From contig NZ_JAIMBY010000001.1 of NCBI RefSeq assembly GCF_026191915.1, forward strand, positions 1-64,000: DNA of 64,000 nt, read 5' to 3'. A model generated the notes under the pieces. The model ran no database searches, was not told the origin of the DNA, and saw nothing but the letters and a program-made list of their open reading frames with translations. Origin of the DNA: Acidiphilium sp. PA. GTDB lineage: Bacteria; Pseudomonadota; Alphaproteobacteria; Acetobacterales; Acetobacteraceae. Every line of letters starts with the position of its first letter. Within the stretch, counting starts at the first letter, position 1. Positions 482 to 27,703 of this stretch are shown here, piece by piece. A program made the translations under genes and the position numbers.

Positions 482-500
482 TGTCAGGAAATTTTACACA
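482..500 (+). promoter_or_regulatory. Putative upstream activator site of PEP-CTERM gene 1
   Basis: TGTCAGGAAATTTTACACA, an imperfect dyad (TGT...ACA around AAATTT). The same element, differing at one of its first 18 bases, precedes the second PEP-CTERM gene at 27629. It lies about 80 bases upstream of the sigma-54 -24 element, as expected for an enhancer-binding response regulator. In families with exosortase/PEP-CTERM sorting, the known regulator of this kind is PrsR; its gene is not in the window, so the binding protein is inferred. Confidence 0.65.
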
Positions 501-560
501 TTGGAAGACACGCTTTGCATGATATCCTGTATCTATTTGAATTAATTATATAATTTTTTT

Positions 561-576
561 TGGCATGAAACATGCA
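561..576 (+). promoter_or_regulatory. Sigma-54 (-24/-12) promoter of PEP-CTERM gene 1
   Basis: TGGCATGAAACATGCA has the invariant GG (562-563) and GC (574-575) separated by exactly ten bases, close to the RpoN consensus TGGCAyr-N4-TTGCw; the -12 TTGC is ATGC here. Transcription should start near 586, giving a leader of about 48 bases before the ATG at 634. A matching promoter precedes the other PEP-CTERM gene. Confidence 0.65.
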
Positions 577-633
577 TATTTTTCACCAGCAGTTAGTAAC
601 CCTGCGTCAATTATCTCGATCATGGAGTCCAGC

Positions 634-1341
634 ATGTCATTCAAAACTTTCCTCCTCACCGGCTCGGTCGCCGCAGCGCTACTATCCTTTGGCACAGCCC
701 ACGCGTCGCCCATTAATCTGGTCCAGAACGGCACGTTCGGCACGGGCGATTTCACCGGCTGGAACATGGGCACCGTCCCACCAGTCAACAGCGCCGAACA
801 GGTCATCGCGACCGATAACGTTGCTCGCAACTACCCGCAGGGCGCCTACGGCCAGGCCGTCGCGAGAGATATGCTGACCTCTGGCAGTCCGGATGCCAGC
901 AGCGGTTACGCTGCCTATTTCTCGACGGATACGGGCACCGAGACCCTCTCGCAGACCATTGCTCTGAACGCCGGCACCTACAGCATCGGGTTCGACGTCT
1001 ACGTCCCGGCCAACGGCTATGCCAACCCGAACGATGCGACCTTCAGCGGCAGCGTCGTCGGTACCAACCTGATCTCCTCCGCCAGTGTCGCCGCAATCGG
1101 TGCGGCCGATGGCACCAACACATGGACGCTGGTTTACGGTACAGCCGACATCGCAACCGCCGGCTCATACAAAGTCAATTTCAGCTTCACCGGCGGCGGC
1201 GTCACTGCCAAAGATATCCTGGTTGATCGGATCTTCGTCGTCCCCGGCACTGTCAGCGTGCCGGAACCCGGCTCGCTCGCTCTGTTCGGCACCGCGCTGA
1301 TCGGCCTCGGCCTCGTTCTGCGTCGCCGCAACCGCGCCTGA
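634..1341 (+). CDS. PEP-CTERM sorting domain protein (secreted)
   Basis: Exported protein of 235 aa. The N-terminus MSFKTFLLTGSVAAALLSFG ending in THA is a signal peptide. The middle (about residues 25-205) is Gly/Thr/Ser-rich and beta-like, with one DxG-rich repeat region and no enzyme motif. The C-terminus is a textbook PEP-CTERM signal: VPEPGS, a hydrophobic segment (LALFGTALIGLGLVL) and RRRNRA. Such tails are processed by exosortase, and the proteins are usually tied to exopolysaccharide or biofilm. The start at 634 is preferred over upstream in-frame ATGs (565, 622) because GGAG sits six bases before it and the signal peptide begins there. Single gene with a sigma-54 promoter and its own terminator. 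No exosortase gene is present in the window. Confidence 0.88.
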   Translation: MSFKTFLLTGSVAAALLSFGTAHASPINLVQNGTFGTGDFTGWNMGTVPPVNSAEQVIATDNVARNYPQGAYGQAVARDMLTSGSPDASSGYAAYFSTDTGTETLSQTIALNAGTYSIGFDVYVPANGYANPNDATFSGSVVGTNLISSASVAAIGAADGTNTWTLVYGTADIATAGSYKVNFSFTGGGVTAKDILVDRIFVVPGTVSVPEPGSLALFGTALIGLGLVLRRRNRA

Positions 1342-1374
1342 AACCGCAATCCGGCTAAAAATGGGTGGGGACCC

Positions 1375-1407
1375 AACGCCTCCGGTTCGCCGGAGGCGTT
1401 TTCGTTT
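1375..1407 (+). terminator. Rho-independent terminator after PEP-CTERM gene 1
   Basis: An 11-bp perfect stem (1375-1385 with 1390-1400, AACGCCTCCGG and its complement) is closed by a stable TTCG tetraloop and followed by TTCGTTT. It separates the PEP-CTERM gene from the following operon. Confidence 0.85.
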
Positions 1408-1450
1408 CCACCACATTGACGACCGCGCGGCCGCCCGATAGCCCCGCTCC

Positions 1451-1969
1451 ATGAACCCCGCCGAACCGCCCAGCTTTACGATCCGCGCCGCCCGAAAGGA
1501 CGATGCTCTCGCGATCACCGCGTTGCGAAACATGCCCGGCGTCCGGCACGGCACCCTCGCAGTGCCATTCGGCCAGACAGCCGCCAGCATCGCCTACCTC
1601 GAAAAGCTCGGACCAGATAATCATCTCCTCGTGGCCGAAGCGGGCACCGAACTGGTCGGTACCGCAAGTCTGAACCGCCATACGGGCCGCCGCGCGCATG
1701 TCGCGGGCCTTGGCATCAGCATCGCCGATCCCTGGCAAGGAAAGGGCGCCGGCACCGCACTGATGTCCGCGCTGATCGACCTGGCCGACAACTGGCTGGG
1801 CCTAGTGCGGATCGAACTCAACGTGTTCACCGATAACCGCCGCGCCATCGCACTCTATGAGAAGTTCGGCTTCATGATCGAAGGGCGCCAGCGCGCCTAT
1901 GCGCTGCGCGATGGTGTGCTGATCGATTCCCTTTCAATGGCCCGAATCCATCCCGCCCCATCGCCATGA
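1451..1969 (+). CDS. GNAT family N-acetyltransferase
   Basis: A 172-aa single-domain acetyltransferase of the RimI/PhnO-like type. Visible family features are the beta4/alpha3 acetyl-CoA binding region IADPWQGKGAGTALMSALI (Q/RxxGxG/A-like loop) near residues 94-112, and the C-terminal NRRAIALYEKFGF signature near 130-142. The substrate is not evident. It starts an apparent operon: its stop overlaps the ATG of the YfhO-like gene by four bases (ATGA, 1966-1969). No clear Shine-Dalgarno precedes the ATG. Confidence 0.85.
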   Translation: MNPAEPPSFTIRAARKDDALAITALRNMPGVRHGTLAVPFGQTAASIAYLEKLGPDNHLLVAEAGTELVGTASLNRHTGRRAHVAGLGISIADPWQGKGAGTALMSALIDLADNWLGLVRIELNVFTDNRRAIALYEKFGFMIEGRQRAYALRDGVLIDSLSMARIHPAPSP

Positions 1970-4563
1970 AAGCGGCCGCACGGCACGCCGGGCCGCTCAT
2001 CGGCCTCATCGCCCTGCCCTGCCTTGCGAACCTGTTGCTGATCCTGGGCGTCATGCATGCCGACCCCGCGCTGTTCTATCGCGGTCTCACCGTCGATCTG
2101 CGCACCGGCCCGTTCCCCGCACCCGGCTCACCAACCTGGGCGGACCCGACGATCGGCCTGATCACCCAGGCGCAGGGCATGCTGAGCGCGAAGGACTGGC
2201 TTGCCGGCATCATCCCCTGGTGGAACCCCTATACCGGGGTCGGTATGCCGCTCGCGGCCGAAATGCAGACCTTGTCGTTCTTTCTGCCCTTCGTCCTGCT
2301 GCTCCGCCTCGCCCATGGCTGGCTGATCCTGCGGCTGGTGCTGCAAAGCCTCAGCGGCGCCGCGCTCTATGCTCTGCTGCTCGACCTCGGCACCACGCGG
2401 TTCGCCGCTTTCATCGCTGGTGCGCTCTATGGGCTGAGCGGCATTTTCTTCCTCGTGCCCCACGCCGCCGGCCCGCTGCCGTTCATGCCGCTGCTGCTGC
2501 TCGGCATCGAACGCGCGACACGCGCCGCCCGAAGCGGCACCCCGTGCGGCTGGGGTCTGATCGCCGCGGCCACCGCCGCGATGATCTATGCGGGCTACCC
2601 GGAAACCGCCTATTTCGGCGGCCTGCTCGCCGCCGCGTGGACGCTGCGCGCCCTCGCCCTAGCCGGTGCGGCGCGCATCCGCCTCGCGGGCAAGATCATG
2701 CTCGGGCTGATCCTCGCGCCCGCCCTCGCCGCCCCGTTGCTGATCCCCTTCGCCGATTACGTCCGGGTGTCCTACTACGGCCCGCACGATGGATATTTTT
2801 CGCTGATCGCATGGCCCGCCTCGGCCATGCTGTCGGTGTTGCCCTTCATCGTCGGCCCGATCGCGGGGCCGATCCCGCCCGCGCTCGCCGCCGCCGCAGC
2901 GGGCCCGATCGACAATGCCTGGTGGCAGACCGGCACCTGGTTCGGCATCATCGCCATCGCCATCGCGCTGATGGCGGTCATTGCGCGCCATCGTGAACGC
3001 GGCCGCGCCATCCTGCTCGGCTGCATCATCACATTCGGAATGCTGCGGATCGAGGGGATCAATCGTGCGCGCGAAGCGTTCAATCTGATCCCCTTCGTCG
3101 GCACCACGGATGCGATCCGCTTCGTCACCCCCGCGCTCGACCTCGCACTGCTGATCATGGTCGGCCTCGCGCTCGATCACTGGCAGCGCCGCGGTGCCCT
3201 GCCCCGCCGCGCCGCGGCGATCGCCGGGGCGACTTGCCTCGGCCTGATCCTGATCGTGACCCTGCCCCACCGCGCGCAACTGCGCGCCTGGTACCGCGCG
3301 AGCCCATTCGATCACCACGTCGTCCTGATCGCCTGCGGCACCGAACTCGCCGCCGCACTGGCCTGCCTCGCGCTCCTGACCGGGCGACCAGGCCGGCTTG
3401 CCACAACCATGCTCGCATGCCTCGCCCTGGGCGATGCCACGGCGACCATGGCATCCGGTCAGGCTGCCGCCGCGTGGTCGGGCGAACAGGCGACCGGCGG
3501 CATCCGCTTTCTGCAGACACATCAAAAACTAGGGCGGTTCTTCACGCTGGGACCCTTCGGCCCGGATTACCCCGCCGCCGATCGCCTCGCCTCGATCAAC
3601 ACCAACCAGTTGCCGGTCGCCGCCTCCTGGATCGGCTTCGGCAATACCGCACTCGGCCTGCAACCCACCGCACCGCTTGCCGGCCAGGCCGCAGCCCTGC
3701 GCGACCACCTCGCTGGCTTCCGCGCGGTGGGCGTCACCACCATCCTGACCCCGCCGGGCCTCGATCCCTTTCGCGACAGCACGAGCCTGACGCTCGATGC
3801 CAGCGCGCCCGGTGTCTCGCTCCAGGGCAGCGCGACAATCCAGGGCAGCCTGCCGGCATCCACCCCCCTCCCCCGGCGGATCAGCGCCATCGGCGTCCGG
3901 ATCGGCACCTATGACGGCGCCTCGACCGGCCGGTTGAACGTAACGCTCTGCGCCGGCAGCGATTGCGCGACCGGCCAGGCCAGCCTGGATCACGCCGCCG
4001 ATGACGCGAGCCTGCCTATCACCCTGACCCACCCGCTGCGCATCCCGCCCCACGCGGCGCTGCATTACAAATTCAGCCACCACGCCGGCAACGCCGTGAT
4101 GATCTGGAGGGGCCGGATCGCCGGCACCACCATCATCGCGCCGTACCTGCGCTTCGATGGGCCGAAACCAACCCCGGCGCCGCGCCTGATCTATCGCGAT
4201 CGCGCCATGTGGATCTACCACCTGCCGGGGGCCGCGCCCTTCTACACCGCACCCGGCTGCACGATATCGAACGCCAGCCTGAACCGCGTCATTACAGATT
4301 GCGCGGCACCCGCAACACTGATCCGCCGCGAAGCGTGGTTCGGCGGATGGCACGCGGTCATCGGCGATCGCGCCGTCGTCATCGCCCGGCACGGTCCGCT
4401 GTTCCAGGCGATCGCGCTGCCCGCAGGGCGCAGCCGCATCCGGTTTTTCTACCGCCCGCGCCACACCCGCCTCGCCTGCCTGCTCGCCCTTGCCGCCCTC
4501 GGTCTCGCGGTTGTGCTGCAAACACGGGGCCGGCTTGGCGGCGGCGCGGGCGCACGCCTATAA
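1966..4563 (+). CDS. YfhO-like large multi-pass membrane protein
   Basis: 865 aa. Roughly residues 1-500 contain about a dozen hydrophobic segments in GT-C/YfhO style, with an early periplasmic loop holding WWNPYTGVGMPL (the conserved WNP...G.P motif seen in YfhO-type proteins near the first loop). Residues about 510-830 form a soluble, probably periplasmic domain, and a last membrane segment lies near 838-858. YfhO family members are implicated in glycosylation of cell-surface polymers; the substrate here is unknown. Translationally coupled to the upstream GNAT gene (ATGA), with only six bases to aroC. Confidence 0.7.
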   Translation: MKAAARHAGPLIGLIALPCLANLLLILGVMHADPALFYRGLTVDLRTGPFPAPGSPTWADPTIGLITQAQGMLSAKDWLAGIIPWWNPYTGVGMPLAAEMQTLSFFLPFVLLLRLAHGWLILRLVLQSLSGAALYALLLDLGTTRFAAFIAGALYGLSGIFFLVPHAAGPLPFMPLLLLGIERATRAARSGTPCGWGLIAAATAAMIYAGYPETAYFGGLLAAAWTLRALALAGAARIRLAGKIMLGLILAPALAAPLLIPFADYVRVSYYGPHDGYFSLIAWPASAMLSVLPFIVGPIAGPIPPALAAAAAGPIDNAWWQTGTWFGIIAIAIALMAVIARHRERGRAILLGCIITFGMLRIEGINRAREAFNLIPFVGTTDAIRFVTPALDLALLIMVGLALDHWQRRGALPRRAAAIAGATCLGLILIVTLPHRAQLRAWYRASPFDHHVVLIACGTELAAALACLALLTGRPGRLATTMLACLALGDATATMASGQAAAAWSGEQATGGIRFLQTHQKLGRFFTLGPFGPDYPAADRLASINTNQLPVAASWIGFGNTALGLQPTAPLAGQAAALRDHLAGFRAVGVTTILTPPGLDPFRDSTSLTLDASAPGVSLQGSATIQGSLPASTPLPRRISAIGVRIGTYDGASTGRLNVTLCAGSDCATGQASLDHAADDASLPITLTHPLRIPPHAALHYKFSHHAGNAVMIWRGRIAGTTIIAPYLRFDGPKPTPAPRLIYRDRAMWIYHLPGAAPFYTAPGCTISNASLNRVITDCAAPATLIRREAWFGGWHAVIGDRAVVIARHGPLFQAIALPAGRSRIRFFYRPRHTRLACLLALAALGLAVVLQTRGRLGGGAGARL

Positions 4564-4569
4564 ACCCGC

Positions 4570-5679
4570 ATGTCGCATAACAGCTTCGGCCATCTGTTCC
4601 GTGTCACCACCTGGGGCGAGAGCCACGGCCCCGCGATCGGCTGCGTGGTCGATGGCGTGCCGCCCCGCATCGCCCTGTCCGAGGCCGATATCCAGCCGTT
4701 TCTCGATCGCCGCCGCCCCGGCCAGTCGCGCTTCACCACCCAGCGCCGCGAGCCTGACACCGTGAAAATCCTCTCCGGCGTCTATCAGGGCCAGACCACC
4801 GGCACGCCGATCGCGCTGATGATCGAAAACACCGATCAGCGGAGCAAGGACTACGCCAACATCGCCGACCGGTTCCGTCCCGGCCATGCCGATATCGCCT
4901 ATCACTGGAAATACGGTATCCGCGACCCGCGCGGCGGCGGACGATCCTCGGCGCGCGAGACCGCCATGCGCGTCGCCGCCGGTGCCATCGCCCGCAAGAT
5001 CCTCGGTGATGGCATCATCATCCGCGGCGCTTTGGTGCAGATGGGACCCCACGCCATCGACCGCAGCCGCTTCGACGATGCCGAGATCGATCGCAACGAT
5101 TTCTTCTGCCCGGACCCGCTCGCCGCCCGTCTGTGGGAGACCGAACTCGATGCCGTCCGCAAATCCGGCTCCTCGGTCGGTGCGGTGGTCGAAATCACCG
5201 CGCGCGGTGCGCCGCCCGGCCTCGGCGCGCCGGTCTATGCCAAACTCGATGCCGATCTGGCGGGTGCGATGATGAGCATCAACGCCGTCAAGGCGGTCGA
5301 GATCGGCGATGGGTTCGCCGCCGCCGCCCTGCGCGGCGAAGAGAACGCGGACGAGATGCGCATGAACCCTGATGGCACGGTGCGTTTCCTCGCGAACCAC
5401 GCCGGCGGCGTGCTGGGCGGCATTTCGACCGGCCAGCCGATCGTGGTGCGCTTCGCGGTCAAGCCGACCAGTTCGATCCTGACCGAGGTCGCGAGCGTCG
5501 ATGCCGAAGGCGCCGAGGTCGATATCCAGACCAAAGGCCGGCACGACCCCTGCGTCGGCATCCGGGCCGTGCCGGTCGGCGAGGCGATGATGGCCTGCGT
5601 CCTCGCCGATCATTGGCTGCGCCACCGCGCCCAATGCGGCGCATTCGTACCGGCGCGGTTACCTATCACAACAATGTGA
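4570..5679 (+). CDS. aroC: Chorismate synthase
   Basis: Catalyses conversion of 5-enolpyruvylshikimate 3-phosphate to chorismate, the last step of the shikimate pathway, using reduced FMN. 369 aa, the normal length. The N-terminal [18 protein letters not shown] and the central RPGHAD and [10 protein letters not shown] signatures are intact, including the conserved histidines and arginines that bind FMN and substrate. No good Shine-Dalgarno precedes the ATG, so translation probably depends on coupling to the YfhO-like gene six bases upstream. A class II DAHP synthase (first step of the same pathway) is at 25003. Confidence 0.97.
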
Positions 5680-5717
5680 TAGCAGGACGACCGTCCGACC
5701 TGTAGTATGCGCGTATC

Positions 5718-6914
5718 ATGAATATGACACGCACGCCGACCCAGCGCACCAAGGACATCAAGTCGATCATTTCGGTCGCCGGTCGAAAATTCTGGGCCGA
5801 TCGGCTGGTGGCATTGCAGGCCAAAGTCGGGGCCGGCGCGCGCTATGGCAAGCTGGTTGCCAAACGCTATGCCGCTGAATTCGCGGCAGAAAAATGCCGC
5901 CTCGGGCGGGAGATGTCGCCGCTTGAAACCAGCCTCGCCAGCCGCGTCGCCGGGCTTTCCGCGCTCGATGCAAGGCTGAATGCCGCCGGCAAGGTCCGGT
6001 TCCGCGCCGCGCTCACCGCCGCACTGACCGGCGAGGCGACGCTGATACCATTACTACATCTTCATCGCACCGCCATCTTGCACGAAGCCGCCGGTTTCGA
6101 GGTTCAGTTCGCCGGATTCGAGGATGGCGCCCCGTTCGACCTGCTGATCACGCGCGACGGCGTCACCGCCGAGATCGCCTGCGACACGCTCTCGGCCGAA
6201 GAGGGCCGGCTGGTCCATCAATCCGCCTGGATGCGCCTGATGGACCGGATCGACCCCGACCTGCAGACCTGGCTTTCCGCCCACCCCGGCCGCTACCTCC
6301 TGAAAATGACGCTGCCGCAGGGTTTGCGCGATGCCGCGGCAGCCGATGGCACCAACGCTCTCGCCGCGCTGCATGAGCGCATCAACACCATGCTCTCGAC
6401 CGCCAAACGCTCCGATCATGACGAAGCGGCGGTGCTGCGCCTCGACCCGCTGATGCTCGCGGCCGCGCAGGCGGGCGAGAACGGGCTGATGAACAAGCTG
6501 CGCCGCGAGTTCGGCCCGGAAGCTAATCTCGCGGTCACCGGCGCCGGCAACGGCATTTTCGTGCTCGCCGCGCGGGCCGGCAGCGAGAATGAAATCGCGG
6601 TCGCCATGCGCAAACGCCTCGCCGCCCTGGCGCCGGCCCGGCTGACCGGCACCCGGCCAGGCATTCTGGCCATGTTCATCGAAGACACCGATCGCCTGGA
6701 ATGGACCCTGCTGCGCGACCATCTGACCCTGGAAGGTGAGGCACGGCAGTTCCTGACGTTCCCGGAAGCCCGCATCGTCGTCGCGGTCACCTGCGCCTCG
6801 CGGTTCGAGCTGTATGCCGAAATCGGTGCCGACAGTGCCATGCGCTTTCGCAATCCATCGCACCCCGCCGCCAAGCTGCCAGCGCTCGCACCGGCGATCC
6901 TCTCGACGATGTAA
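5718..6914 (+). CDS. Conserved protein of unknown function, 398 aa
   Basis: I do not recognise a named family. The N-terminus (about 1-60) is basic and Ala/Lys-rich (KFWADRLVALQAKV, ARYGKLVAKRYAAEFA). The middle segment around residues 130-170 reads FEVQFAGFEDGAPFDLLITRDGVTAEIAC in pieces, a beta-strand pattern reminiscent of restriction-endonuclease-like folds (D...ExK), but the lysine is replaced (AEIAC), so catalysis by that mechanism is doubtful. No signal peptide or membrane segment. Start is ATG 5718, or 5724 six bases later; neither has a strong ribosome site. It follows aroC by 38 bases on the same strand and may be in its operon. Confidence 0.6.
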   Translation: MNMTRTPTQRTKDIKSIISVAGRKFWADRLVALQAKVGAGARYGKLVAKRYAAEFAAEKCRLGREMSPLETSLASRVAGLSALDARLNAAGKVRFRAALTAALTGEATLIPLLHLHRTAILHEAAGFEVQFAGFEDGAPFDLLITRDGVTAEIACDTLSAEEGRLVHQSAWMRLMDRIDPDLQTWLSAHPGRYLLKMTLPQGLRDAAAADGTNALAALHERINTMLSTAKRSDHDEAAVLRLDPLMLAAAQAGENGLMNKLRREFGPEANLAVTGAGNGIFVLAARAGSENEIAVAMRKRLAALAPARLTGTRPGILAMFIEDTDRLEWTLLRDHLTLEGEARQFLTFPEARIVVAVTCASRFELYAEIGADSAMRFRNPSHPAAKLPALAPAILSTM

Positions 6915-6920
6915 GGACGG

Positions 6921-7589
6921 TTACGCGCCGATCTGCCCGGTCACGACCGCGCCGTGGCGCATTTCAGCCGGCAGGCTCATCGCGATCAGGCGCGCCGCGG
7001 CCATGTCCGACGAGAGCATCGCCGGGTCGAACAGATTGACCCGTAGCCGGGTGCGCGCGACTTCCGCTGCCCAGGACAAAACCAGAGCACGCCGCGCCGC
7101 CATCGATGCGCTGACCACGCCCGCATAGGCGGCTGGCGCGCCCTTGCGGATCAACACCACCGCCCGCCCATAGGGCGCATCGCGCAGCAAACCGCCGCAG
7201 GCGCGGATCAAGCGCCATGTCGCGGTTGCATTGATGCCGAACGCGGGCTCCCAGTCGCTCTGCTCGACCTGGCCGACCGGCATCGACCGGCCGACCGTCG
7301 CGGCGGCGTGGACCAGAATATCCAGCCGGCCGAACCGCTCATACAGGCTGATGCCGATCTGATCGGTCACGTCGCCCTTGGTCAGATCCGCCGGCAGCAG
7401 CGTCGCTTCGCCGCCCTGCGCACGGATCGCGTCATCGGTGGCGGCGAGCCCGGCGTCGTCGCGCGCCGCGATCACGACATGGGCACCAAGCCGGGCGAGG
7501 CCGGCCGCCGTGGCCGCACCGATCCCGCGGCTGGCCCCGGTCACCAGCGCGACGGTGCCGCTCAATATCTGTGTGCTCGGTTCATCCAT
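6921..7589 (-). CDS. Short-chain dehydrogenase-like protein lacking the catalytic triad
   Basis: 222 aa. The Rossmann nucleotide-binding motif TGASRGIG (about residues 17-24) is intact. The usual NNAG is HAAA. Where the Ser...Tyr-x3-Lys catalytic residues should be, it has VVLIRKG and VSASMAAR: Val replaces Tyr (about 159) and Met replaces Lys (about 163). It probably binds a nucleotide but is not a classical SDR oxidoreductase. Start at 7589 (MDEPST...) is chosen because the protein begins there just before the Rossmann fold; longer readings add low-complexity sequence. It follows the TSUP gene on the same strand and is convergent with the 5718 gene. Confidence 0.8.
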   Translation of the reverse strand: MDEPSTQILSGTVALVTGASRGIGAATAAGLARLGAHVVIAARDDAGLAATDDAIRAQGGEATLLPADLTKGDVTDQIGISLYERFGRLDILVHAAATVGRSMPVGQVEQSDWEPAFGINATATWRLIRACGGLLRDAPYGRAVVLIRKGAPAAYAGVVSASMAARRALVLSWAAEVARTRLRVNLFDPAMLSSDMAAARLIAMSLPAEMRHGAVVTGQIGA

Positions 7590-7603
7590 CGCCCGATTAT
7601 GGG

Positions 7604-8353
7604 TCAGCGCATGTCGATGAACAAGCCAATTGTCAGCCCGAGTCCGACCAGAACCACGCCCGCGCGCAGGATGCGCTCGTTGATCCGGCGCAGCAGGAAC
7701 ACACCCGCCTGCCCGCCCAGCACCGCCGCGATCGCCACGTAAAGCACCAGCCCCCATGCGATGTGGGCACGGGCCAGAAACACCACGACGGCGGCCGCGT
7801 TCATCACCCCGGCCAGCACGTTCTTGGTCGCCCCGGCCTGGCGCACCGCAACACCCGTCGCGGTCAGCGCCGCGAGCATCAGAATACCGATGCCGCCGCC
7901 GAAATATCCGCCGTAGATCGAGATCAGGAACTGCGCCGCCGCAGCACCCCGCACGCCGAGCCGTGCCGCCATCGCCGTATCCGGGCGCCGGCCGAAACTG
8001 CCCCAGGCGAACACGCTCGTCGCGAACAGCACCAGAAACGGCACCATGTGCGCGAACACGCCGGCCGGCGTGGTCAGCAGCAGCACCGCCCCGAGCGCGC
8101 CGCCGATGAGGCTGATGCCGAACAACGTGGCAAATCCCAATCCCGCCGCGCCGGTTACCAGATTGCGCCCGGCGATGCCGGTGGTGACCTGCCCCGGGAA
8201 CAGCGCGATGGTGGAGGTGATGTTCGCGGCCCGCGGATCGAGTCCGGCGAGCAGCAGCGCCGGAAAGGTCAGGAACGAGCCGCCGCCGGCCAGCGCATTC
8301 TGCGCACCGGCGACGAACGACACGGCCACGAGCACGAGGTCACGCCAGTTCAT
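7604..8353 (-). CDS. TSUP (TauE/SafE) family membrane transporter
   Basis: 249 aa, almost entirely hydrophobic with about eight membrane segments. The N-terminal VSFVAGAQNALAGGGSFLTFP is the typical TauE/SafE first repeat (G-A-GGGS-FLTFP), echoed in the second half by ISIYGGYFGGGIGILML. Members export or import sulfite, sulfoacetate or other organic anions; the substrate cannot be told here. Its ATG (8353) overlaps the glpR stop by four bases (ATGA), so it is co-transcribed with the regulator. This might hint at an organic anion linked to glycerol metabolism, but that is inference. Confidence 0.87.
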   Translation of the reverse strand: MNWRDLVLVAVSFVAGAQNALAGGGSFLTFPALLLAGLDPRAANITSTIALFPGQVTTGIAGRNLVTGAAGLGFATLFGISLIGGALGAVLLLTTPAGVFAHMVPFLVLFATSVFAWGSFGRRPDTAMAARLGVRGAAAAQFLISIYGGYFGGGIGILMLAALTATGVAVRQAGATKNVLAGVMNAAAVVVFLARAHIAWGLVLYVAIAAVLGGQAGVFLLRRINERILRAGVVLVGLGLTIGLFIDMR

Positions 8354-9144: not shown

Positions 9145-9280
9145 TGTCGTCTCCTGCGATCAACGGCGGCACACGACCGCCGGAAGGGCGACAGATGCCG
9201 CGCCCGCACCGTCTTGGCAAACCGGCGCGGGTTTGATGGCCGTACAAAGCGCGTCGCCAGTCACCGATCCCGGTGTTTTT

Positions 9281-9292
9281 TTCGCTTGCGAA
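9281..9292. promoter_or_regulatory. Candidate GlpR operator
   Basis: TTCGCTTGCGAA is a perfect dyad (TTCGC-TT-GCGAA) in the 264-bp divergent glpR/glpD intergenic region, followed directly by CATT so that GCGAACATT matches the GAACAT half-site style of GlpR boxes. Further TTCG half-sites are at 9343 (TTCGCAC) and 9386 (TTGTTCGA). Position and symmetry fit a repressor site; binding is inferred. Confidence 0.4.
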
Positions 9293-9408
9293 CATTGCAC
9301 GGGCCTGATAGGAGCAATTCAACAATAACCTTGAGGAAATGGTTCGCACATGGTGAATTCCATGACACATTCCGAATGTTTCATTGTTCGACCCGGCGGC
9401 GTGCGCCC

Positions 9409-10932: not shown

Positions 10933-10934
10933 AA

Positions 10935-11042: not shown

Positions 11043-11070
11043 AGGAAATGCAACAAAGGAGGAAATCATA

Positions 11071-12570: not shown

Positions 12571-12595
12571 GCGCAATATTGGGGGAAATTGAACG

Positions 12596-13612: not shown

Positions 13613-13634
13613 CATCGGGTTCGCAGCGACATGG

Positions 13635-17550: not shown

Positions 17551-17561
17551 TCCCGCCGCCG

Positions 17562-18269: not shown

Positions 18270-18301
18270 CCACGCTCTATAGCACTTCTGAAGGATCGAT
18301 C

Positions 18302-19033: not shown

Positions 19034-19126
19034 TGTCACGCGCATGTCATGAATAAATCTTTCTCACCCCCCCGGCTTCGCGCTACCTGAACTCGGCACG
19101 AAACACGACTTTAAATAGAGGGTTGC

Positions 19127-20308: not shown

Positions 20309-20437
20309 ACACACAGACGAGCGCGAGCGATCTGACGGTCCGACCCCGTCTGACCGGTCGCGCTGGTCATCTGGGTATCCGCAATCGATCCACCCTCATG
20401 TCGTCTCGCGCCCCGGTCATCGTGCTCGAAGGCACAC

Positions 20438-22243
20438 TCAGCCCTGAACGGCCCTGCGTGCCCCCCCGGCGCCGGACGCCTCGCGGTCAGCTTCGAAGAG
20501 TTCCTGCAACTCGGTGACACTCTGCTGCAGACCGGCGATGACCCGCGGCTCATCGCCGGCAAAGCCGAGCGTCTCGCTCAGCAGCGCCTCATCACGCGCG
20601 GCGAATTCCGCAACGGTTCGCGCCGCATCGTCGGGCTCGATCGCAAGCGCCGTCAGCGCCATCTCGCCCAGTTTCAGGCTCGACAACAGCGTCTCGCGCA
20701 CGATCAGCGTGACGCCCAGATCCATCAGCAGCTGGGCATGCCGCCGATTGCGGGCGCGTGCCAGGATCACAAGGTGCGGCAGATGCCGCAGTGCGAGTTC
20801 GGCCAGTTTCAGCGCCGCCTCGGCATCGTCGAGCGCGATGACCAGCACCTTGGCCGACTCCGCCCCGGCCGCGCGCAACACCGTGATCCGCGTCGGGTCG
20901 CCGAAATAGGCGCGCGCGCCAAACCGGCGCACGAAGGCGACATGCTCGGCATTCTGATCGAGCGCCGTGAAAGCGATACGCCGCACCGACAGCAGCCGCC
21001 CCACGATCTGCCCGACCCGGCCGAACCCGCAGATCAGCACCGGCGTCGGCCGGTCTGGCGCGATCGCCACCGAAGCGACCTGACGCTTGTTCATCCGCGG
21101 GATGGCGAACCGCTCGATCCCGGCGAACAGCAGCGGCACCACCAGCATCGACAGCGCCACGGTCAGCGTCGCCAACCCCGCCTGGGTTTTCGATAGCGCC
21201 CCCGCCGTCACCGCGGCCCCGAACAGCACGAAACTGAACTCGCTGCCCTCCGGCAGCGCCACCGCGAACCGCAGCGCCGTCGCGGCACTCCGCCGCTTGA
21301 TGAATGAGACGACGAACCCGACCACGATCTTCACGGCCAGCGTCGCCGCGACCGCCGCCACAATGGTCAAGGGCTGGGCCAGCAGCAATGAAAAATCGAC
21401 CGACATGCCGACCGAGATGAAAAAGAACCCGAGCAGCAACCCCTCGAACGGCTCGACATCGGCCTGAATCGCATGGCGAAACTCGGAATCCGACAGCAGC
21501 GCCCCGGCCATGAACGCCCCCAGCGAGGCGGACAGCCCGGCCCAATGCGCGAGCGCTGCCGTGCCGACCACGATCAGCAGCGTCATCGCGGTGAACACTT
21601 CCGGCGTACGCGTGCCCCCGACCAGGCGAAAAATCCGCTCCACCAGATAGATCCCGCCAGCCAGGATCGCGACCACCGCGATCAACGCCCGGCCTACCGC
21701 GAACCACGGCACATGGCTGGGCAGATGGTTCGGCAGGTGCCCGCTCGCGAACAGCGGCACCAGTGCTACCAGGGGAATGAACGCCATGTCCTGAAACAGC
21801 AGCACCGCGAACGCATCGCGCCCGGACGCCGCACTCAGCAAACTCCGCTCGCCCAGCATCGGCAGCACGATGGCGGTCGAAGACAGCGCGAGACCCAGCC
21901 CGACCAGCGCCGCCGCCGTCCAGCTCAACCCGGCCCAATGGGCCAGCACCGCCAGCAATGCCGCACTCGGCACCATCTGACCAAAGCCGAGCCCCAGGAT
22001 GGTCTTGCGCAGAATCCACAGCCGATGCGGCCTGATTTCCAACCCGATCAGGAACAGCAGCATGATGACGCCGAGTTCCGATATGTTCTGGATCTGCGAA
22101 ACCCCGGTGACCAGCCGCAACCCGTCCGGCCCGATCGCGAGACCGGCCACCAGATAGCCGACGATGCTGCCGACACCGAGGCGCCGGGCAATCGGCACCA
22201 TGATCACCGTCGCGGCCAGCAAGGCCACCAGCGTCTCTATCAT
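20438..22243 (-). CDS. Kef-type/CPA2 monovalent cation:proton antiporter with TrkA-N domain
   Basis: 601 aa. Residues about 1-385 are a Na+/H+ exchanger (CPA2) membrane domain with the sequence features GYLVAGLAIGPDGL and SELGVIMLLFLIGLEI. The soluble C-terminus begins with the Rossmann motif ICGFGRVGQIVG (about 412-423), a TrkA-N/RCK nucleotide-binding domain, as in KefB/KefC/YbaL. Probably glutathione- or nucleotide-gated potassium efflux protecting against electrophiles, which would fit the nearby gloB and gor. The start is ATG 22243, at the first membrane helix; longer readings are not family-like. Confidence 0.92.
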   Translation of the reverse strand: MIETLVALLAATVIMVPIARRLGVGSIVGYLVAGLAIGPDGLRLVTGVSQIQNISELGVIMLLFLIGLEIRPHRLWILRKTILGLGFGQMVPSAALLAVLAHWAGLSWTAAALVGLGLALSSTAIVLPMLGERSLLSAASGRDAFAVLLFQDMAFIPLVALVPLFASGHLPNHLPSHVPWFAVGRALIAVVAILAGGIYLVERIFRLVGGTRTPEVFTAMTLLIVVGTAALAHWAGLSASLGAFMAGALLSDSEFRHAIQADVEPFEGLLLGFFFISVGMSVDFSLLLAQPLTIVAAVAATLAVKIVVGFVVSFIKRRSAATALRFAVALPEGSEFSFVLFGAAVTAGALSKTQAGLATLTVALSMLVVPLLFAGIERFAIPRMNKRQVASVAIAPDRPTPVLICGFGRVGQIVGRLLSVRRIAFTALDQNAEHVAFVRRFGARAYFGDPTRITVLRAAGAESAKVLVIALDDAEAALKLAELALRHLPHLVILARARNRRHAQLLMDLGVTLIVRETLLSSLKLGEMALTALAIEPDDAARTVAEFAARDEALLSETLGFAGDEPRVIAGLQQSVTELQELFEADREASGAGGARRAVQG

Positions 22244-22396
22244 CGGTCGATGTCCTGTTTGTGAAGGACCACACGACCAGCCCCGGCCCGCGCCTGTCAA
22301 GCGGATTGCGCCGGATGGACAGATCGTCATCTCAACCACCCTGCTATCGCAGCGTCGGCGTTCCAACATCGGCTCAGATCATCAAGGAGTTTGAGA

Positions 22397-23398
22397 ATGC
22401 GTAAAATAGCCGTCATCACGGGCGCCGGTGCCGGCGTGGGCCGCGCCACCGCCCAACAATTCGCGCACGCCGGCTGCGATATCGGCCTGATCGGCCGCGA
22501 TCGCGACCGGTTGGAAACCGCCGCCGCCGAGCTGCGCACACTCGGAATCCGCGCCTGCGTCGCCCCGGCCGACATGGCCGATGCCGAGGCGGTCGACCGC
22601 GCCGCCGACACGATCGAGGCCGCGCTGGGCCCGATCGATATCTGGGTCAACAACGCGATGGCGACGATTTTCGCGCCGGTTTCCGAGATCACGCCGGCCG
22701 AATTCAAGCGCGCGACCGAGGCGACCTACCTCGGCACCGTGCACGGCGTCATGACCGCCCTGCGCGCCATGAAGCGGCGCGATCAGGGAACCATCATCAA
22801 TGTCGGCTCCGCCCTCGCCTACCGCTCGGTGCCCCTGCAATCGCCCTATTGCGGCGCGAAAGCCGCGATCAAGGGGTTTACCGACAGTCTGCGCAGCGAG
22901 CTCATCCACGACCGCAGCGCGATCAAACTGAGCATGGTCCACCTGCCGGCGGTGAACACGCCGCAATTCGATTGGGCGCTCAACAAAATGGGCCGCCGCG
23001 CCCAGCCGGTGCCTCCGATCTACGACCCCGAGGTTCCGGCCAAGGCAATCGTGTTCGCCGCCTTTCACCACCGCCGCGAAATCTGGGTCGGCATGCCGAC
23101 CGTGGTCGCCATCATGGCCAACCGTATCGCGCCTGGTTTTGCAGACCGATACCTCGCCACCCATGGCTATTCGACCCAGATGTCGAACCAGCCGCTCCCG
23201 CCCGACGCGCCCGCCAATCTGTTCGAGCCGGTGCCCGGCCGGCGCGGTGCCCGTGGCCGATTCACGGACCGCTCGCGTCGCGGCAGCCTGGAAATGTTCA
23301 CCGACCGTCATAAAGCCACCGCCCTTACCCTCCTTGCGGTTGCCGGCGCCGCAGCGATCACCGGGTTGCATCAGCTCGCCAAGAAGTATGATTTCTAG
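22397..23398 (+). CDS. Short-chain dehydrogenase with C-terminal membrane anchor
   Basis: 333 aa. Rossmann motif [12 protein letters not shown] at the N-terminus, NNAM in place of NNAG, and an intact catalytic set (NVGSALAYRS and SPYCGAKAAIKG, i.e. Ser, Tyr, Lys). Residues about 200-300 are family-specific, and a hydrophobic segment (TALTLLAVAGAAAITGL, about 306-322) near the C-terminus suggests membrane attachment. Substrate unknown; resembles the SDR group annotated as ketoacyl or glucose/ribitol dehydrogenases. AAGGAG seven bases before ATG 22397 fixes the start. Confidence 0.87.
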   Translation: MRKIAVITGAGAGVGRATAQQFAHAGCDIGLIGRDRDRLETAAAELRTLGIRACVAPADMADAEAVDRAADTIEAALGPIDIWVNNAMATIFAPVSEITPAEFKRATEATYLGTVHGVMTALRAMKRRDQGTIINVGSALAYRSVPLQSPYCGAKAAIKGFTDSLRSELIHDRSAIKLSMVHLPAVNTPQFDWALNKMGRRAQPVPPIYDPEVPAKAIVFAAFHHRREIWVGMPTVVAIMANRIAPGFADRYLATHGYSTQMSNQPLPPDAPANLFEPVPGRRGARGRFTDRSRRGSLEMFTDRHKATALTLLAVAGAAAITGLHQLAKKYDF

Positions 23399-23403
23399 GC
23401 GGC

Positions 23404-23502
23404 AATAGTTAAGGAAGGCCTACTTTCCTGCAAAAAGGACGCAGAAAACGCCCGGTCGCTTAGGGTGCGGGTGCGGGACACGCCCGTACAGATTATTGGC
23501 CG
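23404..23502. repeat. Degenerate hairpin repeat, copy R3
   Basis: Between the SDR and gor. Recognisable parts are AAGGAAGGCCTACTTTCCTG followed by CAAAAAGGACGCAGAAAACG and CGCCCGTACAG. The order (AAGGAAG, hairpin, A-rich tract, GC-rich core) follows R1, but the T-rich right end is missing. This is the most eroded copy I accept. Confidence 0.5.
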
Positions 23503-23580
23503 CCGTGCATCATGGTTTATTTCATTCCTGCCGCTCCCATGCGAAACACAGTGTTAAGTTTTCAGGAGCATTGTGTTCGC

Positions 23581-24954
23581 ATGACCTTTGATTTCGACCT
23601 GTTCGTGATCGGCGGCGGTTCGGCCGGTGTCCGCCTGGCACGGATCGCCGCCGGGCATGGCGCGAAAGTCGCCATCGCCGAAGATCGGTTCTGGGGCGGA
23701 ACCTGCGTCAACATCGGCTGCGTGCCGAAAAAACTGATGGTGATGGCCGCGGAATACGGCCTCGCCGCCGATGACGCCACCGGGTTCGGCTGGCGCATGG
23801 CCAGGGGCACGCATGACTGGCCCGGCTTCATCCGCGCCAAGAATGCCGAAATCGCCCGGCTCAACGGAGCCTACACCGGGCTGCTGGAACGCGCCGGTGC
23901 GACGATCTTCAACGCCCGCGCCACCATGCTCGACGCCCATACGATCGATGTCGGCGGCACCAACCATACCGCAGCCCGCATCGCCATCGCGACCGGCGGC
24001 CATCCGATCCGCCCGGACATCCCCGGTGGCGAACTCGGCATCATTTCCGACGATGCGTTCTATCTGCCCGAACGCCCCAACCGCGTCGTCATGATCGGCG
24101 GCGGCTATATCGGCGTCGAATTCGCCGGTATTTTCAATGGACTCGGCGCAAAGGTCGATCTGGTCTATCGCCAGCCGCTGCCGCTGCGCGGTTTCGATGC
24201 CGATCTGCGCTACAGTCTGGCCGAAGCGCTCGATGCCAACGGCATCACCCTGCATCCGGGCCACGCGCCGCTGCGGATCGAGGATCGGGGCGACGCCCGG
24301 CGGCTGCATCTCTCGAACGGACAGCATATCGATGCGGATTGCATCTTTTTCGCGACCGGCCGCGCCCCCAACACCGCGGGCCTTGGCCTCGAACGGGCCG
24401 GCGTCGCCCTGGCACCGAGCGGCGCTATCCCGATCGATGAGGGGTTTCATACCAATATCCCGCATATTTTCGCCCTCGGCGACGTCACCGACCGGCTGAA
24501 CCTCACCCCCGTCGCCACCGCCGAAGGCCATGCGCTGGCCGACACGTTGTTCGGCAACAAACCACGCGCGGTCTCGCTGAACAACGTCGCGAGCGCCGTG
24601 TTCTCGATCCCGCCGCTCGCGACCATCGGCGTCACCGAGGACGAGGCCCCGCCGGGGTCGCGCATTTTCCTGACGCGGTTCACCGCCATGCGCCACGCGC
24701 TCAGCGGCCGGGCGCGCAAGACGCTGATGAAACTGATCGTCGATGCCACGACCGACCGGGTGATCGGCGCGCATATGCTGGGCGAAGATGCCGCCGAGAT
24801 CATGCAGGGCATCGCGATTGCCATCACCGCCGGCGCGACCAAGGCGGATTTCGACCGGACCATCGGCATCCACCCGACCGCCGCCGAGGAATTCGTCACC
24901 CTGCGGACCCAGACCCGCCTGACCGGCACGGCCGATGCGAAAGCAGCGGAGTAG
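23581..24954 (+). CDS. gor: Glutathione-disulfide reductase
   Basis: NADPH-dependent FAD enzyme that keeps glutathione reduced. 457 aa, the usual length. N-terminal FAD motif GGGSAGVRLARIAA, redox-active WGGTCVNIGCVPKK, central NADPH motif GGGYIGVEFA, and the C-terminal catalytic GIHPTAAEE with the His-Glu pair. The close match to glutathione reductase rather than mercuric reductase or lipoamide dehydrogenase rests on the GCVPKK and HPTxxEE forms. Start ATG 23581; AGGAG is a rather distant 12 bases upstream. Confidence 0.94.
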   Translation: MTFDFDLFVIGGGSAGVRLARIAAGHGAKVAIAEDRFWGGTCVNIGCVPKKLMVMAAEYGLAADDATGFGWRMARGTHDWPGFIRAKNAEIARLNGAYTGLLERAGATIFNARATMLDAHTIDVGGTNHTAARIAIATGGHPIRPDIPGGELGIISDDAFYLPERPNRVVMIGGGYIGVEFAGIFNGLGAKVDLVYRQPLPLRGFDADLRYSLAEALDANGITLHPGHAPLRIEDRGDARRLHLSNGQHIDADCIFFATGRAPNTAGLGLERAGVALAPSGAIPIDEGFHTNIPHIFALGDVTDRLNLTPVATAEGHALADTLFGNKPRAVSLNNVASAVFSIPPLATIGVTEDEAPPGSRIFLTRFTAMRHALSGRARKTLMKLIVDATTDRVIGAHMLGEDAAEIMQGIAIAITAGATKADFDRTIGIHPTAAEEFVTLRTQTRLTGTADAKAAE

Positions 24955-25002
24955 CATGTTGCGGCGTTTCCGGATTATAGCGATGCCTTCGAGGAGATCG
25001 CC

Positions 25003-26409
25003 ATGCCAGCAACGACCGTGACTCAAACCGCTCTTGCACCGTGGACGCCGGAGTCCTGGCGCGCGAAACCGATTTTGCAGGTTCCGAGCTATCCGGACCA
25101 GGATAAGCTCGCCGCGATGGAAGCACGGCTGCACCGGTTTCCGCCCCTGGTGTTCGCGGGCGAAGCGCGCCGGCTGAAAACCGCCCTCGGCCTCGCCGCC
25201 GAAGGCCGCGCCTTCGTGCTGCACGGCGGCGATTGCGCGGAAAGCTTCGGCGATTTCACCGCCAACATCATCCGCGACACGTTCCGCGTCCTGCTGCAGA
25301 TGGCCGTGGTGCTGACCTATGGTGGATCGGTGCCGGTGGTGAAACTCGGCCGCATGGCCGGGCAATTCGCCAAGCCGCGCAGTTCCGATACCGAGACGAT
25401 CGGCGGTGTCACCCTGCCATCTTACCGGGGCGACATCGTCAACGGGCCGGATTTCAGCCCGCAAGCCCGCATCCCCGACCCGGCGCGGATGGAGTTCGGC
25501 TATTTCCAATCCGCCGGCACGCTCAACCTGCTGCGCGCCTTCGCCTCCGGCGGCTATGCCGATCTGCATCAGGTGCATCGCTGGAACCTCGATTTCGTGC
25601 GCCGCTCGCCGCTGGCGGAGCGTTACCGCGATCTGTCCTCGCGCATCGATGAAACCCTGCAATTCATGGCCGCCTGCGGCATGACCAGCCAATCCACACC
25701 GCAGATCCACGAGACCGAATTCTACACCAGCCACGAATCCCTGCTGCTGCCCTATGAGCAGGCGTTGACCCGGATCGATTCCACCACCGGCGATTATTAT
25801 GCCTGTTCGGCGCATTTCCTGTGGATCGGCGATCGCACCCGGCAACTCGATGGCGCGCATGTCGAATTCATGCGCGGCGTGAAAAATCCCATCGGCATGA
25901 AAATCGGGCCGAGCATGGAGGAGGACGACATGCTCCGCCTGATCGACCGGCTCGACCCTGACAATGAACCAGGCCGGCTGACCCTGATCGCCCGCATGGG
26001 CGTCGATCATGTCGCGGCGAAACTGCCGAAACTGCTGCGCGCCGCCAAGCGCGAGGGGCGGCGCAACGCCTGGCTGTGCGACCCGATGCACGGCAACACG
26101 ATCACCACCGCCGGGCGGATCAAGACCAGGCGTTTCGATGCGATCCTGTCCGAAGTGCGCGGGTTTTTCGACATTCACGAGGCGGAGGGCACCATCCCCG
26201 GCGGCGTGCATGTCGAAATGACCGGCCAGGACGTCACGGAATGCGTCGGCGGCGCGCGCCAGCTGTCGGAGGCCGATTTGTCTTCGCGCTATGAAACCTT
26301 CTGCGATCCCCGGCTGAACGCCGAGCAATCGCTCGAACTCGCCTTCCTGATCGCGGCCGAGTTGAAAGCCCGCCGGGCGCCGCGCAGCACCGAGATCGCC
26401 GCGGAATAA
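25003..26409 (+). CDS. 3-deoxy-7-phosphoheptulonate synthase, class II
   Basis: First step of the shikimate pathway: condenses phosphoenolpyruvate and erythrose 4-phosphate to DAHP. 468 aa, plant/actinobacterial class II form. Metal and substrate motifs are intact: [10 protein letters not shown] (metal Cys), [20 protein letters not shown] (His), [15 protein letters not shown] (Glu) and CDPRLNAEQ (Asp). GAGGAG precedes the ATG by seven bases. Its stop overlaps the pncB start by one base (TAATG), so the two genes are coupled. aroC is at 4570. Confidence 0.95.
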
Positions 26410-27572
26410 TGAGCCGGGTCATCCGCCGGAGCGCTGCTGGCACCGGCACGCGGGCCGCGCTCGATGCCACGATCGCAGCGCGCACCGATGCGTATTTCAA
26501 CCGCACCAAAGCGATCGTCGAGAAATTCGGCGACAGCCGGGTGACCTACGCCTATTTTCTGCGCCGCCCGGTGGTCTCCGCCCCGGCGTTGATGCTGCGC
26601 TGGTTGAACGAGGTCGTGGCCGCCCGGGGCGAGCGGATCGACATCGAACTGCCGCACCCCGAAGGCGCCTGGGTCGGCGCGGGCGAACCGATCGCCTACA
26701 TCACCGGCAGTTTCATCACGCTGGTCGATCTCGAGACCATTCTGCTGCAGAAACTCGGCCCCGCCTGTGTCGCCGCCCATAACGCCTACCAGATGTGCGC
26801 CGCGCTGCCGAAATCCGCCTTTCTCGCAATGGAGGCGCGCCATTGCGCCGGGGCGGAGATGCAGGACATGATGGCCTATGCCGCCGCGGTCGGCTCGCGC
26901 GCGGCGCAGGCCGAAGGCGCGCGTGGCTTTATCGGTAACGCCAATGACGCGACGGCGCATTATTTCGGCGCGCCGCACGGCTACGGCACCATGCCGCACG
27001 CCCTGATCGGCTATGCCGGCTCGACGCTGCGCGCCGCCGAAATGTTCCGCGACACCTTCCCCGACACCGATCTGACCGTGCTGACCGATTATTTCGGCAT
27101 GGAAATCACCGATGCGCTGGCGGTCTGCCAGCGTTTTCCCGATCTGGCGGCGGCCGGCAGGCTCTCAGTGCGACTCGACACCCATGGCGGTCGGTTCCTC
27201 GAAGGGCTCGATCCGCAGGCTAGCTACGCTGTCATGGAACGCCACGCGCCGGGGGCGATCCGCCGCTATCGCAGCCATAACGAGCTGCGCTACCTGATCG
27301 GCACCGGCGTATCGGCCGCGGCGATCTGGCGGATGCGCGAGGCGCTCGACGAGGCCGGGTTCATCCGGGTGAAAATCGTGGCGTCATCGGGGTTCGGCGT
27401 CGAGAAATGCAGCGTGCTGGCCGATGCCCATACGCCGATCGACGTGGTCGGCACCGGCAGCTTCATCCCCGAGACCTGGGGCGAGACCTACGCGACCGCC
27501 GACATCGTCGCCTATGACGGGGCGCCGCGGGTAAAGATCGGCCGGGAATTCCTGCTGCGCGACCGGGTCTGA
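26409..27572 (+). CDS. pncB: Nicotinate phosphoribosyltransferase
   Basis: Forms nicotinate mononucleotide from nicotinate and phosphoribosyl pyrophosphate in the NAD salvage (Preiss-Handler) pathway. 387 aa. Recognisable are TDAYFNRTKAI at the N-terminus, FIGNANDATAHYFG, a GTMPHALI region before residue 200, RLDTHGGRF and SSGFGVEKC, in the arrangement of the shorter bacterial/archaeal nicotinate/quinolinate phosphoribosyltransferase-like group. Its ATG shares a base with the aroG-type stop. nadE at 30050 would complete NAD formation. Confidence 0.9.
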   Translation: MSRVIRRSAAGTGTRAALDATIAARTDAYFNRTKAIVEKFGDSRVTYAYFLRRPVVSAPALMLRWLNEVVAARGERIDIELPHPEGAWVGAGEPIAYITGSFITLVDLETILLQKLGPACVAAHNAYQMCAALPKSAFLAMEARHCAGAEMQDMMAYAAAVGSRAAQAEGARGFIGNANDATAHYFGAPHGYGTMPHALIGYAGSTLRAAEMFRDTFPDTDLTVLTDYFGMEITDALAVCQRFPDLAAAGRLSVRLDTHGGRFLEGLDPQASYAVMERHAPGAIRRYRSHNELRYLIGTGVSAAAIWRMREALDEAGFIRVKIVASSGFGVEKCSVLADAHTPIDVVGTGSFIPETWGETYATADIVAYDGAPRVKIGREFLLRDRV

Positions 27573-27628
27573 TCGAGCGGCCCGTTCTCCGCGGCGCGGC
27601 CTGATCGTGCGATCAAGGTTCACGAAAT

Positions 27629-27646
27629 TGTCAGAAAATTTTACAC
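27629..27646 (+). promoter_or_regulatory. Putative upstream activator site of PEP-CTERM gene 2
   Basis: TGTCAGAAAATTTTACAC matches 17 of 18 bases of the element at 482, and the following TTGG is also shared. It sits 60 bases upstream of the -24 GG of the sigma-54 promoter (80 bases in gene 1), a difference of about two helical turns. Confidence 0.65.
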
Positions 27647-27687
27647 TTGGCAGATGTCGAACGGGTTAAGTTATTGAAATTACGGGT

Positions 27688-27703
27688 TGGCATCGGTTTT
27701 GCA
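27688..27703 (+). promoter_or_regulatory. Sigma-54 (-24/-12) promoter of PEP-CTERM gene 2
   Basis: TGGCATCGGTTTTGCA has GG (27689-27690) and GC (27701-27702) exactly ten bases apart, with a consensus TTGCA -12 element. It predicts a start near 27713 and a 40-base leader before ATG 27753. Confidence 0.75.

Follow-up and report, generated by a model that had tools for sequence, protein, structure and literature searches.

What joins two PEP-CTERM genes, coding for surface proteins, that lie far apart in the window (the whole stretch of 64,000 nucleotides of Acidiphilium sp. PA analysed here), and how are their promoters built? The first-pass annotation had proposed a shared regulatory circuit rather than a recent gene duplication. 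The element TGTCAGRAAATTTTACAC occurs in two copies in the window, each followed by a sigma-54-type promoter and then a PEP-CTERM gene (Table 1). The two 18-mers, at 482-499 and 27629-27646, are identical at 17 of 18 positions, confirming the coordinates and the identity annotated before, and the window contains no third match even with up to three mismatches allowed. Shuffled versions of the window gave a mean of 0.01 matches, and two matches were reached in 0 of 100 shuffles. The dyad previously read in the element (TGTCAG...TTTACAC) is only partial, its outer TGT/ACA being symmetric and its inner CRG/TTT asymmetric. The promoters annotated at 561-576 and 27688-27703 are present, with each of these ranges ending one base late.

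Table 1. Features of the two PEP-CTERM promoter regions in the window.
Feature	Sequence	Position	Strand	Details and basis
PrsR-type upstream element (Haft motif 1)	TGTCAGGAAATTTTACA	482..498	+	First PEP-CTERM gene; sequence, chance 0.01 in window
IHF-like box	TATCTATTTGAAT	530..542	+	31 nt after element, 18 nt before TGGC; 8/9 fixed positions of YAANNNNTTGAWW
Sigma-54-type promoter	TGGCATGAAACATGC	561..575	+	GG 562-563, GC 574-575; sequence
PEP-CTERM protein gene, 235 aa		634..1341	+	PF07589 27.6 bits, cut-off 20.7
PrsR-type upstream element	TGTCAGAAAATTTTACA	27629..27645	+	Second PEP-CTERM gene; sequence, shuffle test
IHF-like box	TAAGTTATTGAAA	27667..27679	+	21 nt after element, 8 nt before TGGC; 9/9 on YAANNNNTTGAWW
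Sigma-54-type promoter	TGGCATCGGTTTTGC	27688..27702	+	GG 27689-27690, GC 27701-27702; sequence
PEP-CTERM protein gene, 260 aa		27753..28535	+	PF07589 22.6 bits, cut-off 20.7

The two proteins (for the first, the ATG at 634 was picked as the start from the signal-peptide-like N-terminus) are identical at 15 of 29 positions of the PEP-CTERM tail and show no other significant similarity, in line with the earlier statement that they are not otherwise alike. A recent duplication of both genes is ruled out, as the C-terminal signal alone aligns. In the whole genome, the element was found at 10 places with up to three mismatches and the reversed pattern at none, and nine of the 10 sit 5' of PEP-CTERM genes. 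The tenth (C1:685280) was rejected as a chance match, with no GG-N10-GC in the next 130 bases and no PEP-CTERM gene found. These counts, together with the window shuffles, argue against random scatter or a chance origin of the element. Lone TGGCN8TGC matches are not rare (35 in the window vs 18.8 expected), and therefore the promoter motif is meaningful only by its pairing with the element. A genome scan for element and GG-N10-GC pairs, as suggested in the first-pass annotation, returned 12 exact pairs, all 12 of them 5' of PEP-CTERM genes. Including two one-mismatch copies, the unit is present at 14 of the 22 PEP-CTERM genes detected in the genome; it is absent from the other 8, among which is one (L031) without upstream sequence to inspect. 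This distribution, with proteins that align in the tail only, upholds the proposal of a shared regulatory circuit.

PrsK, PrsR and PrsT are encoded in one gene cluster, with 449.5, 635.5 and 375 bits against cut-offs of 300, 502.6 and 312.2, respectively. RpoN is encoded as well (384.2 bits, cut-off 277.35) and TGGC-N8-TGC matches the -24/-12 sequence of sigma-54-type promoters; the XrtA-associated genes TIGR03007 and TIGR03097 are also over cut-off. Aquincola tertiaricarbonis is a betaproteobacterium. The pepA gene of its strain RN12, a PEP-CTERM gene, resembles the genes described here in having a mapped -24/-12 promoter with a predicted enhancer upstream, and its transcription, with a mapped start, is RpoN1-dependent according to the text of PMC9850573. 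The unit itself was described in the text of Haft et al. 2006 (PMC1569441) as a 17-nt motif ending in TTTACA and then a sigma-54 motif, 5' of PEP-CTERM genes, with a mean of 62.8 nt between motif 1 and motif 2 (SD 10.6, range 32-92). Compared with that text description, not with the motif logo, TGTCAGGAAATTTTACA and TGTCAGAAAATTTTACA fit motif 1 and its terminal TTTACA, the window spacers fall inside the range of 32-92 nt, the -24 GG and -12 GC of motif 2 are present, a PEP-CTERM gene follows at both loci, and PrsK, PrsR and PrsT exceed their curated cut-offs. Doubled elements, which the same text mentions (PMC1569441), are rare in our set, a second element with at most one mismatch being found within 150 nt upstream in 5 of 120 rows.

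Haft et al. also placed PrsK/PrsR/PrsT with the motif and named PrsR as its likely binder (PMC1569441), and PrsK/PrsR control was reported in Zoogloea (text of PMC9012009). In our data, 48 of the 59 genomes with the pattern have PrsR above cut-off, vs 0 of 21 without it, the latter picked by hand; among 40 relatives, the corresponding counts are 9 of 13 and 3 of 27. The 11 of 59 pattern-positive genomes without PrsR over cut-off include one with four sites (G233), four relatives carry sites and no such PrsR (G001, G004, G012 and G016), and three have PrsR and no exact pair (G015, G035 and G037). Genomes with the pair and no PrsR over cut-off might suggest that the element is read by another NtrC-type activator, for which candidates would be 10 further proteins of this genome whose match to the PrsR model covers its sigma-54-activator part and stays below cut-off. 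We regard this as very improbable given the co-occurrence, the phylogenetic profile published for PrsR (text of PMC1569441) and the prsR mutants reported in Zoogloea (text of PMC9012009); moreover, several of the exceptions are incomplete genomes or single odd-spaced pairs without a PEP-CTERM gene (G159, G330 and G372). The regulators over curated cut-offs and the co-occurrence of PrsR with the pattern thus support control of the PEP-CTERM genes by PrsK/PrsR and RpoN, as first annotated. The element is probably a PrsR operator, as was also suggested, although restricting this to the lineage was too narrow, since it was published in 2006 for proteobacteria generally (text of PMC1569441).

The distance from the 17-nt element to TGGC is 62 nt at the first gene and 42 nt at the second. 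The promoters had been described as lying at comparable distance, which does not hold for these lengths, but both are members of one stepped series. Spacers of the other 12 promoters in the genome are 50-63 nt long, and natural variants of the promoter that differ by one helical turn (42, 50-52 and 62-63 nt) coexist in the same cell. Across genomes, the spacers form discrete classes about 11 bp apart, with 120 of 132 promoters within the classes 42-43, 50-52, 61-65, 73-76 and 83-86. PEP-CTERM genes in other genomes were confirmed by a rule of our own, not by a profile, at 85 of the 132 promoters; for 11 of the 47 without confirmation, the sequence available downstream is shorter than 800 nt. 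Pairs numbered 158 with a forward element vs 2 with the element reversed, which is not evidence, because most loci were collected by the forward pattern. A hold-out set taken from other taxonomic classes of the same phylum gave slightly wider spacer classes (49-54, 59-64, 72-74 and 83-88), which take in 41 of its 42 spacers. A phase test, from which near-identical spacers were removed and in which promoters of related genes are non-independent samples, gave its best fit at a period of about 11.4-11.6 bp rather than 10.5, and a single sharp peak near 62 also lifts the statistic.

Such classes could in principle stem from the common ancestry of a few promoter copies, with no structural need for helical phase, since a limited number of genera supplies most promoters and paralogues within one genome share spacer length. 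We consider this explanation improbable. After removal of same-length spacers more than 70% identical, 80 PEP-confirmed promoters remain, and the half-turn gaps, as we defined them, contain only 2 of these (spacers 55 and 67); in addition, the classes recur in the hold-out, and no promoter was common to it and the main set at the 17 hold-out loci checked. Helical phasing of the element is the reading that we retain.

Between element and promoter lies the third part, an IHF-like box. Its match is at least 7/9 in 14 of 14 promoters of the genome, 13 of them with the box 16-18 nt before TGGC (ties resolved toward 18 nt), while the box of the second window gene is one turn nearer the promoter than those of the other 13. 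Among the 80 deduplicated promoters whose PEP-CTERM gene was confirmed, 48 carry a box of at least 8/9 at 16-20 nt before TGGC, compared with about 1.7 in sum in shuffles and 13 of 1013 background TGGCN8TGC sites. The box is absent or elsewhere in the other 32, and in the 83-88 class 0 of 5 have it at 16-20 nt. At the 17 of 42 hold-out promoters on which the shuffle control was run, it was found at 16-20 nt in 11, with a shuffle mean of 0.34 and 1 in eight other 5-nt windows together. A consensus-free check on spacers of equal length made the box columns reappear. What the data establish directly is which sequence parts are present, how they are spaced and that they occur together.

The box agrees with the reverse complement of the IHF consensus WATCARxxxxTTR, as printed in PMC3897727. 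The genome encodes IHF alpha (NF001401, 128.4 bits, cut-off 111) and IHF beta (NF001222, 130.7 against 115; TIGR00988, 123.2 against 119.95), with a second IHF-alpha model, TIGR00987, narrowly missed (115.6-115.8, cut-off 120.25). Identification of the box as IHF-type is sequence-based; alphaproteobacterial boxes often read TTGAAA vs the consensus TTGATW, and further HU/IHF-like proteins besides the IHF pair are encoded, one of them in the window. Alternatively, PrsR might use the box as a second contact, or a different nucleoid or accessory protein might bind there, with PrsR alone setting the phasing. We find this unlikely, as the box is unlike both halves of the PrsR element, many hold-out boxes match YAANNNNTTGATW at 9/9, and the box lies where IHF sites usually do, between the activator site and the sigma-54 promoter. 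At Desulfovibrio vulgaris orp2, for instance, an activator site (-88), an IHF site (-43; AAGATGTTTGATT, in the same orientation as the box here) and a sigma-54 promoter follow in that order, the activator there being DVU2106 and the genes others than a PEP-CTERM system (text of PMC3897727).

Both window genes are very probably members of the PEP-CTERM regulon, probably served by PrsR through a phased, IHF-bent short loop to sigma-54 polymerase; from the promoter parts we infer that, in this organism, PrsR and IHF bind, the DNA is bent and transcription is activated. The NtrC-type activator PrsR, itself controlled by the membrane kinase PrsK, would bind the 17-bp element and stimulate transcription by sigma-54 RNA polymerase from the TGGC-N8-TGC sequence. 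IHF probably bends the DNA at the box, which is usually located about 18 bp 5' of -24. The bend would bring PrsR, bound on one particular side of the helix, into contact with the polymerase across a loop that is short and stiff, and the PrsR site moves relative to box and promoter by steps of about one helical turn. On balance, we think it probable that proteobacterial PEP-CTERM promoters have a three-part design that we did not find in the literature searched, in which the distance from a single PrsR site to the promoter is set in whole helical turns (about 42, 51, 62, 74 and 85 bp) around the IHF box fixed at that place. The searched text of Haft et al. (PMC1569441) mentions neither IHF nor helical phasing of promoters, no IHF or spacing analysis of the pepA promoter was found in the text of PMC9850573, and no description of phased spacing with an IHF box at PEP-CTERM promoters was found in the literature searched, which largely leaves subscription journals outside.

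In conclusion, the circuit itself is already published (Haft et al. 2006, PMC1569441), and the spacing geometry and the third box are what this analysis adds. The exact pairs extend the published regulon to this genome and, being 5' of PEP-CTERM genes genome-wide, allow these genes and their regulator to be called from DNA alone. If the proposed design is true, the promoters of the regulon would form a set of natural enhancer-promoter loops, two to several turns long and all driven by the same activator; IHF would determine the bend, and promoter strength may depend on the number of turns. Steps in the spacing, together with an IHF-like box at a fixed place, offer a testable structural model of short-range sigma-54 activator action.

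Downstream of each of the two elements in the window lie a sigma-54-type promoter and, behind it, a gene for a protein with a C-terminal PEP-CTERM signal above the Pfam cut-off, and no further copy of the element was found in the 64 kb at up to three mismatches (shuffle mean 0.01). The first-pass annotation had described this arrangement, which was confirmed, and had called the distances comparable, which needs correcting: the spacers measure 62 and 42 nt, and the element-promoter distances of the two genes are therefore unequal. As it also proposed, the two proteins are otherwise unlike, their alignment being limited to the PEP-CTERM tail.

Units of this kind are already known from print, since they were preceded by the description of a 17-nt motif with TTTACA at its end, followed by a spacer (mean 62.8 nt, SD 10.6, range 32-92), a sigma-54 motif and then a PEP-CTERM gene, reported upstream of 99 among 167 PEP-CTERM genes of proteobacteria, with PrsR as the expected binder of the motif (Haft et al. 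2006, PMC1569441), and by work on a PEP-CTERM gene of Aquincola, with RpoN1 dependence and start site shown (PMC9850573), and on one of Zoogloea, stated there to be under the control of RpoN and PrsK-PrsR (PMC9012009).

Features of the PEP-CTERM circuit, and an HU/IHF-family protein, in the window and elsewhere in its genome
Feature	Location	Strand	Remark
Upstream element TGTCAGGAAATTTTACAC	482-499	+	sequence
TGGC-N8-TGC sigma-54-type promoter	561-575	+	downstream of first element
Upstream element TGTCAGAAAATTTTACAC	27629-27646	+	sequence
TGGC-N8-TGC sigma-54-type promoter	27688-27702	+	downstream of second element
HU/IHF-family DNA-binding protein	window 34306-34575	-	PF00216 85.2 bits, cut-off 22.4
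22nd PEP-CTERM gene	L186:1222-1779, contig C1 about 248,222-248,779	-	found through its promoter only
PrsK gene	contig C17		449.5 bits, cut-off 300
PrsR gene	contig C17		635.5 bits, cut-off 502.6
PrsT gene	contig C17		375 bits, cut-off 312.2

Across the genome (4.54 Mb, 86 contigs), the element occurs at 10 places at up to three mismatches (reversed control 0), and the combined pattern TGTCRGN5TTTACA, 32 to 92 nt, TGGCN8TGC at 12 (control 0). All 12 exact pairs lie upstream of PEP-CTERM genes; 11 front genes among the 21 above the Pfam PEP-CTERM cut-off in a whole-genome search, which overlooked the gene behind the twelfth (24.6 bits against a cut-off of 20.7 on direct scan). With a one-mismatch element at two more such genes (loci L012 and L017), the unit is present at 14 of 22 PEP-CTERM genes; in seven of the eight unit-less genes (L031 left out), TGGCAYN6TGC is absent from the roughly 300 nt that precede the open frame. 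Several PEP-CTERM proteins (loci L014, L016, L018, L021 and L023) are very glycine-rich, with long GGGGG stretches, and partly paralogous.

Spacer lengths were pooled from 132 distinct promoters, of which 115 come from the genome itself, its relatives and its class; the remaining 17 belong to named PrsR loci in alpha-, beta- and gammaproteobacteria. Their distribution is discontinuous: 42-43 nt (n = 5), 50-52 (31), 61-65 (68), 73-76 (8) and 83-86 (8), the other 12 being 24, 48, 53, 54, 55, 59, 67, 89, 91, 97, 99 and 108 nt, with a confirmed PEP-CTERM gene at 5 of these 12. After removal of near-identical spacers, 80 promoters whose PEP-CTERM gene was confirmed remain, and 2 of them fall in half-turn gaps. 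The 42 hold-out promoters, taken from other classes of the phylum among the first places listed per genome, gave 49-54 (n = 8), 59-64 (25), 72-74 (3), 83-88 (5) and 68 nt (1), a phase concentration, among those places, that no set out of 20,000 random ones (uniform or smoothed) attained. In the pooled set and in the hold-out places listed alike, a period of about 11.4-11.6 bp fits best, part of the statistic coming from the sharp main peak; this period lies slightly above the 10.5 bp of straight B-DNA.

Spacers of equal length, aligned without a consensus, contain a third box, YAA-N4-TTGA-WW, 31 to 19 nt before TGGC at length 62, and it recurs almost equally far from TGGC at lengths 51, 52 and 63; because this distance is nearly constant, the box keeps its place relative to the promoter, and it is the PrsR site that shifts. 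Requiring 8 of 9 positions and a box end 16-20 nt before TGGC, we found it in 48 of the 80 PEP-CTERM promoters left after deduplication (dinucleotide shuffles summing to about 1.7), in 13 of 1013 TGGCN8TGC sites that lack the element, and in 11 of 17 hold-out loci (shuffle mean 0.34; eight other windows together, 1 match). In the window's genome all 14 promoters carry it at 7 or more of 9 positions, 13 of them 16-18 nt before TGGC; the sole exception is the second promoter of the window, whose spacer is 42 nt because its box sits one turn closer, at 8 nt. The box matches, in reverse complement, the IHF consensus WATCARxxxxTTR printed in PMC3897727; the promoter studied there has a functional IHF site flanked by the activator site and the sigma-54 promoter, the same order as here. 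The genome encodes IHF alpha and beta; for one of the two alpha models the score falls just short of the cut-off. The window's own HU/IHF-family protein has IHF alpha as best NCBIfam model, at 61 bits below the cut-off of 111, and is among six matches to that model in the genome.

The PrsK, PrsR and PrsT genes lie side by side, adjoining an XrtA-type chain-length determinant and an O-ligase, both above cut-off, and three more neighbours match XrtA-linked families below it; RpoN is present in one copy. Of 59 pattern-positive genomes, 48 have PrsR above cut-off, versus 0 of 21 pattern-negative ones chosen by handle number; among 40 relatives the counts are 9 of 13 versus 3 of 27. The link between PrsR and the element-promoter pattern is thus strong but not exact, as the exceptions include complete genomes such as G233, with four in-phase sites. 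G233, G323 and G401 form one genus (g195), and PrsR looks intact in G401. The G323 match is truncated to positions 1-352 and contains one internal stop, yet still scores above cut-off; G233 keeps four element-promoter pairs and has no PrsR above cut-off, and no PEP-CTERM gene was found behind these promoters by our own detection rule. This genus could be a case of a regulon in the course of losing its activator. Exact pairs with no PrsR above cut-off also occur in four genomes of the same genus or family as the window's (G001, G004, G012, G016); G001 is 96% complete, and both its promoters read TGGCCC instead of TGGCAY.

Our literature search, with most subscription papers outside its reach, returned no match for IHF and phasing as part of PEP-CTERM promoters. 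Element, box and promoter were observed to occur together at recurring spacings. From this arrangement we propose that PrsR, phosphorylated by PrsK, would bind the element and that IHF would bend the DNA at the box, such that the activator may reach the polymerase, placed at -24/-12, from one constant face of the helix; a full turn added or removed would be tolerated, and a half turn would not.
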